Below are positions 4,775-6,555 of a stretch of 64,000 nt of DNA, piece after piece. The notes below the pieces were generated by a model. That model saw only the letters and a list, made by a program, of their open reading frames with translations. It did no database searches and was not told the origin of the DNA. A program made the position numbers and the translations under genes. Numbering within the stretch: the first letter of the stretch is position 1; every line of letters begins with the position of its first letter. Source of the stretch: Mangrovibacterium lignilyticum (GTDB lineage: Bacteria; Bacteroidota; Bacteroidia; Bacteroidales; Prolixibacteraceae); NCBI RefSeq assembly GCF_010882175.1, contig NZ_WKLH01000002.1, positions 186,001 to 250,000 of the forward strand, written 5' to 3'.

Positions 4775-5878
4775 ATGGAGAATTTTATTGTTTCTGCGCG
4801 CAAATATCGTCCCGATACGTTTCATTCTGTAGTTGGTCAGGCATCAATTACAGCTACGCTAAAAAACGCTATCAAAAACCAACAATTGGCTCATGCATAC
4901 TTGTTTTGCGGGCCTCGCGGTGTTGGGAAAACGACTTGCGCCCGTATTTTCGCAAAAACTATCAATTGCCAAAATCTGACCGCAGAGACTGAGCCTTGTA
5001 ACACTTGTGAATCCTGTCAGGCGTTCAATACTAATCGTTCGTACAATATTCACGAGCTGGATGCGGCATCGAATAACTCGGTGGAAGATATTCGTACCCT
5101 GACTGATCAGGTTCGGATACCCCCACAGATTGGCAAATACAGCATCTATATCATTGATGAAGTCCATATGCTGTCTCAGTCGGCGTTCAATGCCTTTCTG
5201 AAAACTCTGGAAGAGCCGCCCAAACATGCCTTATTTATTTTGGCAACAACCGAGAAGCATAAAATCATTCCAACGATTTTGTCGCGTTGCCAAATCTTCG
5301 ACTTTAACCGGATTAAGATCTCTGATATTTCAGGGCATTTAGGATATGTGGCTAAGAGTGAAGCGGTGGAAATTGAGTCGGAAGCGTTGAATGTAATCGC
5401 TCAAAAGGCAGATGGTGCTATGCGCGATGCTCTTTCTATCTTCGACCAGATTGTTAGTTTCTCGGGTAAAGACATTACTTATAAGCATGTGATTGCCAAC
5501 CTGAATGTGCTGGATTACGATTTCTACTTCCGGTTGATTGATCATTTCCTGAAAAACAATGTTCCGGAAGCCTTGATGCTGTTTAATGAAGTGCTGGATC
5601 ACGGTTTCGACGGACATCATTTTATTACCGGTTTGAGCAGCCATATTCGCGACCTGCTGGTTTGCAAAGACCCGCTGACAGTTCAGTTGCTCGAAGTGGG
5701 AGGCGAAATTAAAGAGAAATATAAGCAGCAGGCTGCTGCGTGCGATCAGGAATTTCTTTTCGAAGCATTGAAAGTCGGCAACGAATGTGATATTCAATAT
5801 AAACAAAGTCAAAACAAACGCTTACTGGTTGAGTTGGCCCTGATTAAAATGGCTCAACTTACCTTAAAAAAAAAATAG
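4775..5878 (+). CDS. dnaX: DNA polymerase III clamp-loader subunit DnaX, short (gamma-like) product
   Basis: A 367-residue clamp-loader ATPase that opens and loads the beta clamp. Walker A GPRGVGKT is at residues 46-53, four zinc-binding cysteines are at 65, 75, 78 and 81, the D-E Walker B (IIDEVHML) is at 128-129, and the SRC sensor 1 region is at 170-172. The zero frame ends at a TAG directly after ten A residues (5866-5875). The product then contains AAA+ domains I-II and the oligomerisation domain III, which matches the gamma form known in E. coli and Thermus. The coding frame continues in the -1 frame at 5875. Alternatively the gene is one long frame broken by a base-count error in the A-run. 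Confidence 0.92.
   Translation: MENFIVSARKYRPDTFHSVVGQASITATLKNAIKNQQLAHAYLFCGPRGVGKTTCARIFAKTINCQNLTAETEPCNTCESCQAFNTNRSYNIHELDAASNNSVEDIRTLTDQVRIPPQIGKYSIYIIDEVHMLSQSAFNAFLKTLEEPPKHALFILATTEKHKIIPTILSRCQIFDFNRIKISDISGHLGYVAKSEAVEIESEALNVIAQKADGAMRDALSIFDQIVSFSGKDITYKHVIANLNVLDYDFYFRLIDHFLKNNVPEALMLFNEVLDHGFDGHHFITGLSSHIRDLLVCKDPLTVQLLEVGGEIKEKYKQQAAACDQEFLFEALKVGNECDIQYKQSQNKRLLVELALIKMAQLTLKKK
5866..5878 (+). other. A10 slippery run plus stop: putative frameshift or slippage site in dnaX
   Basis: Ten consecutive A residues (5866-5875) are followed at once by TAG in the zero frame. A -1 shift on the ribosome, or one extra A put in by RNA polymerase, moves translation into the downstream frame, which stays open to 6555. 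Programmed shifting in dnaX on A-rich sequences is known from E. coli (ribosomal) and Thermus (transcriptional slippage). That it happens here is inference. Confidence 0.65.
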
Positions 5879-6555
5879 CTGACGATACTGAATCGGAGGA
5901 GTTGGCACCTATTTTTGAGCAGTTCGCTACAAAGGCGGCTGCCAATGCACCACGAGCTCAATCCAATCAGGCTGTTGCTCAGCCGTCCGAACAACAACAT
6001 TCGAAGGCACAGAATGAGGTTCAGGAAGAGGCTCCGGCAGCCAAAATAACCACCAAACGGATGATCAAGCGGCGGGGTAGTGGATTTACCCCTTCCATTA
6101 AAGATGCCTTGTCCGGTAAATTTGCTGAAGAGAAAGAGGAAGAAACGGCCATCGACAAGATGAAATATTTCACCGGTGAGCAGTTGAATGAGTCGTTTAC
6201 ACAAGAAGCCTTTGATGAAAAATGGGCGGAGTATCTCCTGCGTTTGAATGGGCGTCCTGCCCTGAAAGCATCAATGAGCCGTACACCTCAGATTTTTGAC
6301 TCATGTAAGCTGAAGCTACAGATCGACAGCAATATTATCGATACTGAAATTAGTAAAATAAAACCGGAATTGGTTTCCTGGCTACGTAAGGAGCTTCGGA
6401 ATACCAGCATTGAACTGATCACAGAGGTTGTTGAATTGGAAGGAACTTCCAACCGCCCTTATTCTGAACGGGAAAAGCTGGCAGAGATGGTCAAAAAAAA
6501 TCCGAATGTGAATTTGCTGAAACAAACCTTCAACCTGGATTTTAGTGACCATTGA
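5875..6555 (+). CDS. dnaX: DnaX tau-specific C-terminal extension (-1 frame)
   Basis: This frame runs without a stop from the A-run to 6555 and would be joined to the preceding frame to give a tau-like protein of about 593 residues. It starts with a low-complexity Ala/Gln/Glu-rich linker (residues after about 370) and then a compact domain near the end (for example SWLRKELRNTSIELITEVVE), which looks like the poorly conserved C-terminal domain of Bacteroidota DnaX that contacts polymerase and helicase. An ATG-less start and no ribosome binding site at the beginning argue against an independent gene. The ferritin gene follows after about 110 bp. Confidence 0.75.
   Translation: MADDTESEELAPIFEQFATKAAANAPRAQSNQAVAQPSEQQHSKAQNEVQEEAPAAKITTKRMIKRRGSGFTPSIKDALSGKFAEEKEEETAIDKMKYFTGEQLNESFTQEAFDEKWAEYLLRLNGRPALKASMSRTPQIFDSCKLKLQIDSNIIDTEISKIKPELVSWLRKELRNTSIELITEVVELEGTSNRPYSEREKLAEMVKKNPNVNLLKQTFNLDFSDH

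Follow-up and report, generated by a model that had tools for sequence, protein, structure and literature searches.

In E. coli, dnaX is recoded at the ribosome, by a −1 frameshift on A_AAA_AAG with an SD-like stimulator and a downstream hairpin (PMC3711429, PMC5009743). In Thermus thermophilus, transcriptional slippage at a run of nine A (A9) has been measured in dnaX (Larsen et al. 2000, as cited in PMC1088944 and PMC5009743), a case described in Baranov et al. 2005 (PMC1088944). A further type, with reversed frame roles, is contained in the data of Antonov et al. 2013 (PMC3711429), who list 17 dnaX genes, spread over 12 genera, in which tau depends on recoding, nine of them with ten A; for the reversed A10 genes, transcriptional realignment as in Thermus was suggested there. 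The reversed type is also mentioned by Atkins et al. 2016 (PMC5009743), in that account as ribosomal frameshifting, together with the argument that one nucleotide can reverse the frame roles where efficiency is near 50%. Outside dnaX, stem-loop-mediated transcriptional slippage is known from the IS630 element of Roseiflexus, on a T5C5 run (Penno 2015, as cited in PMC5009743).

The dnaX gene considered here, from Mangrovibacterium lignilyticum, lies in a window of 64,000 nt, which is the whole stretch of DNA that was analysed. Its zero-frame stop is at a poly-A run and the frame of tau is −1, and like the reversed genes of Antonov et al. 2013 (PMC3711429) it consists of two ORFs, calls for a −1 shift to give tau, and has ten A at the break; it is a well-supported further case of the described type, and its mechanism is not new. 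What goes beyond that study is that the type is traced across a family and placed as one of the phase states of a run widespread in Bacteroidota. With Thermus the gene shares the long uninterrupted A-run and the nearby stops in both other frames, and, in our proposal, the origin of gamma and tau from one gene by slippage, a process which was measured in Thermus and would be expected here; the zero-frame product, however, is gamma in the window and tau in Thermus. Gene and end result are the same as in E. coli, and a slippery heptamer is in frame as well, but A_AAA_AAG is absent from the window, where A_AAA_AAA within A10 takes its place, no SD-like element was seen upstream of the run, the RNA downstream folds ordinarily (z −0.32, −1.12, and −1.32) with no marked stem-loop, and the frame roles are reversed. 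The original prediction, that the layout copies the E. coli and Thermus designs, is supported as to a two-product dnaX but not as to polarity, since tau is the zero-frame product in both of these organisms. A hairpin 5′ of the run, as in the IS630 element, may form in the window, and some of the Flavobacteriaceae-type dnaX genes have one; the runs differ (T5C5 versus an A-run), and the role of the dnaX hairpin is putative.

The dnaX gene of Mangrovibacterium lignilyticum

Direct reading of the gene (Table 1) bore out the earlier claim that ten A and an immediate TAG end a product of 367 residues; the last zero-frame codons are TTA AAA AAA AAA TAG. The first −1-frame codon past A10 is ATA (5875–5877), and this frame stays open until the TGA at 6553–6555, which gives 593 residues for zero frame plus tail, as had been stated, although its length is 226 codons and not 227, a number that would include the stop. 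The stops of the two non-tau frames stand 0 and 2 codons after the run, and the tail can be reached only via a net gain of one A (or loss of two) in the mRNA, or via a −1 ribosomal shift. In a search of the organism's own genome the window gene was the single strong dnaX match, three others being weak (best E 6.1e-9). A second A-run, of eight, is found at 6493–6500 near the end of the tau tail; it is absent from the run lists of the loci L005–L007.

Table 1. Features of dnaX in the window (positions within the 64,000 nt)
Feature	Position	Strand	Basis
Gamma-like zero-frame ORF of dnaX (367 aa) with AAA+ ATPase, lid, and collar domain III	4775..5878	+	ORF list, Pfam, NCBIfam
A10 homopolymer, proposed slippage site	5866..5875	+	read directly; kept in relatives
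TAG directly after A10, zero-frame stop, ends gamma	5876..5878	+	
TGA stop of the third frame (+1), two codons past A10	5880..5882	+	
Tau-specific C-terminal part (tail) in the −1 frame, 226 codons and TGA	5875..6555	+	open frame, PRK14971
Possible RNA hairpin, 3′ end 2 nt before the A-run, role putative	5827..5863	+	folding z

The encoded protein and its tail

By domain models the first ORF belongs to DnaX, the gamma/tau subunit of DNA polymerase III. Pfam identifies DNA_pol3_delta2 (E 8.2e-47) and DNAX_ATPase_lid (E 4.9e-15), while the collar model DNA_pol3_gamma3 (E 4.4e-05, 23.7 bits) remains just below its cut-off of 24.4; among NCBIfam models the ORF matches PRK14971 at model positions 1–365 (E 1.1e-225, 751.2 bits, cut-off 685) and TIGR02397 (E 4e-134, 447.3 bits, cut-off 250). 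The tail alone matches PRK14971 as well (NCBIfam, E 2.7e-19), at model positions 404–613, and both halves of the gene thus match one DnaX model. The tail behaves as protein-coding sequence under purifying selection in the −1 frame, not as debris, because its changes relative to its nearest relatives fall mostly on third codon positions of that frame: compared with locus L005, substitutions at positions 1/2/3 number 55/32/113, with dN 0.218 and dS 3.0, the latter being near saturation.

A structure model of the tail is confident over roughly the last 125 residues, a C-terminal domain, for which comparison with PDB folds gave no match at E ≤ 0.001; the DciA entries 8a3v and 7ykm were among the weak matches, and no inference was drawn from these. 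Searching PDB sequences with a profile of the tails returned nothing significant, and no match of the tail to Pfam exceeded the cut-off. As there is no significant match to a solved structure, it is from homology only that the tail may be supposed to bind the polymerase.

It might be asked whether the tail forms an independent gene that starts on its own, or is translated by re-initiation after the TAG, as there is a TTG at position 5902 of the window with a GGAGG-like stretch just upstream. Among 128 family loci, however, 60 contain no ATG, GTG, or TTG over the first 40 codons of the tail and only 19 contain an ATG there, so that no internal start is conserved; moreover, no model of a free-standing protein (Pfam, NCBIfam) was matched above its cut-off, and what the tail does match is the later part of DnaX. 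An independent tail gene or re-initiation is unsupported by these loci and must be regarded as highly improbable.

The A-run among relatives

The search of the family of the window (Prolixibacteraceae) matched 139 of 140 genomes, most of them with a short open frame; eight genomes gave weak hits only (best E no better than 3.3e-12), and in G092 the match is split over contigs. Of the 130 family loci read, 129 reach the site, the exception (L210) being cut by a contig end before it. All 129 readable loci, which span 22 genus groups, carry an uninterrupted run of nine to eleven A (A10 in 117, A11 in 9, A9 in 3). The frame of tau, labelled in 126 unique family loci, is −1 in 119, zero in four (all A11), and +1 in three (two A9, one A10), and where tau is in −1 the zero-frame stop follows within seven codons of the run. 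This comparison with relatives had been set beforehand; no readable family locus (0/129) has an uninterrupted frame and no A-run. Uninterrupted frames that do contain the run occur in the four family loci with A11 and in 100 labelled loci outside the family.

These data also bear on a base-count or assembly error, which had been named as the main alternative and according to which the true gene would be one uninterrupted frame. Homopolymers are indeed error-prone, and the frame-changing cases among the A9 and A11 variants (L121, L123, L130, L139, L170, L176) may be errors or real. Yet the same break recurs throughout the family, including the genomes listed as a single contig (G001, G036, G068, and G071, all with A10 and TAG next), and codon-position-specific selection continues past the break in the other frame; an error is, therefore, very unlikely. 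Conservation of run and break, the matching of both halves to PRK14971, and purifying selection on the tail together support the gamma-like and tau-like reading of the original prediction, which was right on the sequence and most likely on its meaning too.

Long A-runs are not peculiar to dnaX. The 5.63 Mb genome of the organism contains 41 distinct runs of at least ten A (counted by hand from 63 overlapping hits on both strands), and among the 25 whose coding context was read, three other A10 runs (L324, L328, L346) lie well inside open frames of 404–764 codons. A long A-run within an open frame is thus not unique; its orthologous placement in 129 of 129 loci is beyond chance. The three runs are on contig C8 with A10 on the sense strand, in frames of 404, 683, and 764 codons, respectively, of which the latter two (L328, L346) reach the edge of the stretch or start beyond it; the L346 frame resembles, by eye, a glycoside hydrolase with binding modules. 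Slippage at these runs would shorten the respective products.

Proposed polymerase slippage and the ribosomal alternative

The arrangement is probably that of a programmed dual-product gene, from which gamma and tau would both be made through slippage of RNA polymerase on A10. The polymerase would slip on the run and release mRNAs differing in their number of A. On the unslipped A10 message the ribosome would meet TAG at once, yielding the gamma-like clamp-loader subunit of 367 residues; with one A fewer it would meet the TGA two codons later, leaving a product nearly the same as gamma, and with one A more (or two fewer) it would enter the tail frame of 226 codons and complete a tau-like subunit of 593 residues that includes the C-terminal part. 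We infer that the slip occurs at the polymerase step and that both subunits are made, presumably in a substantial gamma/tau ratio as reported for Thermus.

The closest competitor is −1 ribosomal frameshifting of the E. coli kind, with reversed polarity, on A_AAA_AAA of a faithful mRNA. The heptamer lies in frame just before the stop in the window and likewise has this frame in each of the 275 run loci (129 of the family and 146 others; two duplicates, L034 and L200, are still within this number, and since L200 is the same as L039, one locus tallied as outside is a family member). The E. coli heptamer A_AAA_AAG is in frame at the run end in 11 of the 129 family and 38 of the 146 other loci; reversed dnaX candidates are so described in Atkins et al. 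2016, one of them with E. coli-like stimulators (PMC5009743); and RNA downstream of the run folds slightly more strongly in the family, with a mean z over 50 nt of −0.52 versus a background of −0.10 (the 80-nt mean is −0.84, the background figure being for 50 nt only).

Several observations argue against this. For a ribosomal heptamer seven bases suffice, six A followed by A or G, and the uninterrupted nine to eleven A therefore favour polymerase slippage; G does not occur within the first nine A of the run in any family locus, and at nine conserved Lys columns away from the run AAG is used in 6–47% of 126 family loci. SD-like 5-mers precede the run in only 3 of 129 family loci (11 of 146 others), and the downstream structure in the window is ordinary. 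Further, the two frames that do not encode tau are both closed within six codons in 243 of the 275 loci (126 of 129 in the family, 117 of 146 elsewhere), compared to 13.2% of control positions (5440, taken from the same tails), with a median of 4 codons at the run and 18 at the controls. Mixed mRNAs in all three frames explain this double closure, whereas a −1 ribosomal shift needs one closed frame and has no use for closure of the +1 frame; within the family, conservation of Ile-Ala-Asp in the tau frame could in part account for the TAG/TGA pair past the run. Finally, where tau is in +1, as in the A10 loci L090, L204, and L238, a −1 ribosomal shift is out of reach. Taken by sequence, the evidence favours RNA polymerase slippage; ribosomal frameshifting as the sole route to tau appears unlikely, and shifting at the in-frame heptamer may add to slippage.

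Distribution and polarity in Bacteroidota

Two further sets of genomes were compared. Among the named genomes, for which the best 80 out of 591 relatives were taken, a run of at least nine A was present in 64 loci, or 63 with a narrower search. In the phylum sample, where 145 other genomes matched and 109 were read (each of the 36 in the same class, plus 73 hand-picked from the other 109), it was present in 82 of 109 loci. The run of L060, 86 codons past the expected place, may not be orthologous and is counted in a wider search only. Altogether, 273 of 317 unique loci (L034 and L200 left out) have such a run: A10 in 213, A9 in 39, A11 in 19, and A12 and A13 in one each. To the 44 loci without it the named set contributes 16, the phylum sample 27, and the family the one cut locus; with no run of this length in 43 loci outside the family, the device falls short of universal.

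The predominance of A10 also weighs on a DNA-level explanation, phase variation, in which replication slippage at A10 would switch cells between a gamma-only and a tau state. Run lengths of nine and eleven among relatives would fit such switching, but A10 dominates (213 of the 273 unique run loci), and mixed mRNAs account better for the double frame closure. From what is established for DnaX, lack of tau should be very harmful; this counts against phase variation too and leaves it extremely improbable.

Polarity is far less constant than the run. Outside the family, tau is in the zero frame in 100 labelled loci, in −1 in 43, and in +1 in two. The tau label is weak for L055, L071, and L155, where the contig ends soon after the run. 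On a FastTree tree of the first domains, an approximate gene tree from which L212 and L213 are missing as too short for tree and labels, the frame of tau changed at least 29 times over all 271 labelled loci, and at least 25 times after branches with support below 0.9 were collapsed; with the same collapsing, at least 16 changes remained among the 211 loci of exactly A10. One genus group (g57 of family f16) has, at exact A10, tau in −1 in five loci (L303, L307, L308, L310, L312) and in the zero frame in three (L314, L318, L319). Changes of this kind make most sense where both products remain in good supply, which again favours slippage. We put forward, tentatively and with nearly even chances of being right, that in Bacteroidota slippage on about ten A is so efficient that the frame of tau hardly matters, the run persisting as the tail changes phase back and forth, sometimes inside a single genus group, with run length under selection and polarity near-neutral, and that part of the Flavobacteriaceae have slippage assisted by a hairpin of the nascent RNA.

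No phylum-wide account of the run or of its polarity changes was found in the literature, a weak negative as subscription papers were thinly covered; the scale, with at least 16 phase changes of the long frame among loci of exact A10, seems to be the new part, and it is the phylum-wide pattern that is worth following. Many dnaX genes of Bacteroidota that look broken are suggested to be functional and to encode two products, a layout that automatic annotation may miscall, and the run, which occurs in three phases and either next to a hairpin or not, offers a natural series for the study of slippage efficiency and its control.

Hairpins near the run

In the window, the 60 nt up to the end of the run (5816–5875) fold with a z of −2.74, and one of 200 shuffles was as stable; among synonymous-codon shuffles the hairpin at 5827–5863 ranks at 0.105. 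As a family feature, an upstream hairpin was not upheld: energies of −8 or lower were found in 38% of 128 loci versus 24% of controls, which is not clearly apart, and synonymous-shuffle ranks of 0.05 or lower in 9% versus 10%, and no claim is made for it.

A different picture is seen in Flavobacteriaceae-type dnaX genes, where an 8-bp stem, CTCTATCA (or similar), a loop of 4 nt, and TGATGGAG (or similar) are followed by A10. The stem is found within the 30 nt before the run in L082, L103, L106, L108, L224, L227, L229, L230, L234–L238, and L240, that is, in 14 of 26 printed loci (12 hand-picked named ones and 14 of family f5, which is taken for Flavobacteriaceae by sequence likeness), and it adjoins the 5′ side of the run with a gap of 0–1 nt. 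Two more loci (L097, L112) have the stem with a different loop, and the remaining printed ones a shorter, another, or no such stem. The mean hairpin energy in family f5 is −9.1, versus −2.3 at control positions.

Covariation was analysed in the 21 loci that are in register (L097, L112, L226, L233, and L238 were left out, L226 and L233 being stemless). Pairing amounted to 83.6% of cells versus 79.7% in shuffles, a value reached by none of 500; three stem pairs were changed on both sides, a number reached by 42 of 500 shuffles, and the covariation score of the stem, 0.210, was reached by 12 of 500. These figures are suggestive of a hairpin, short of proof, and the stem may assist slippage. Structures slid along the alignment pair in 32–70%, and the structure slid by +3 scores alike, at 0.211.
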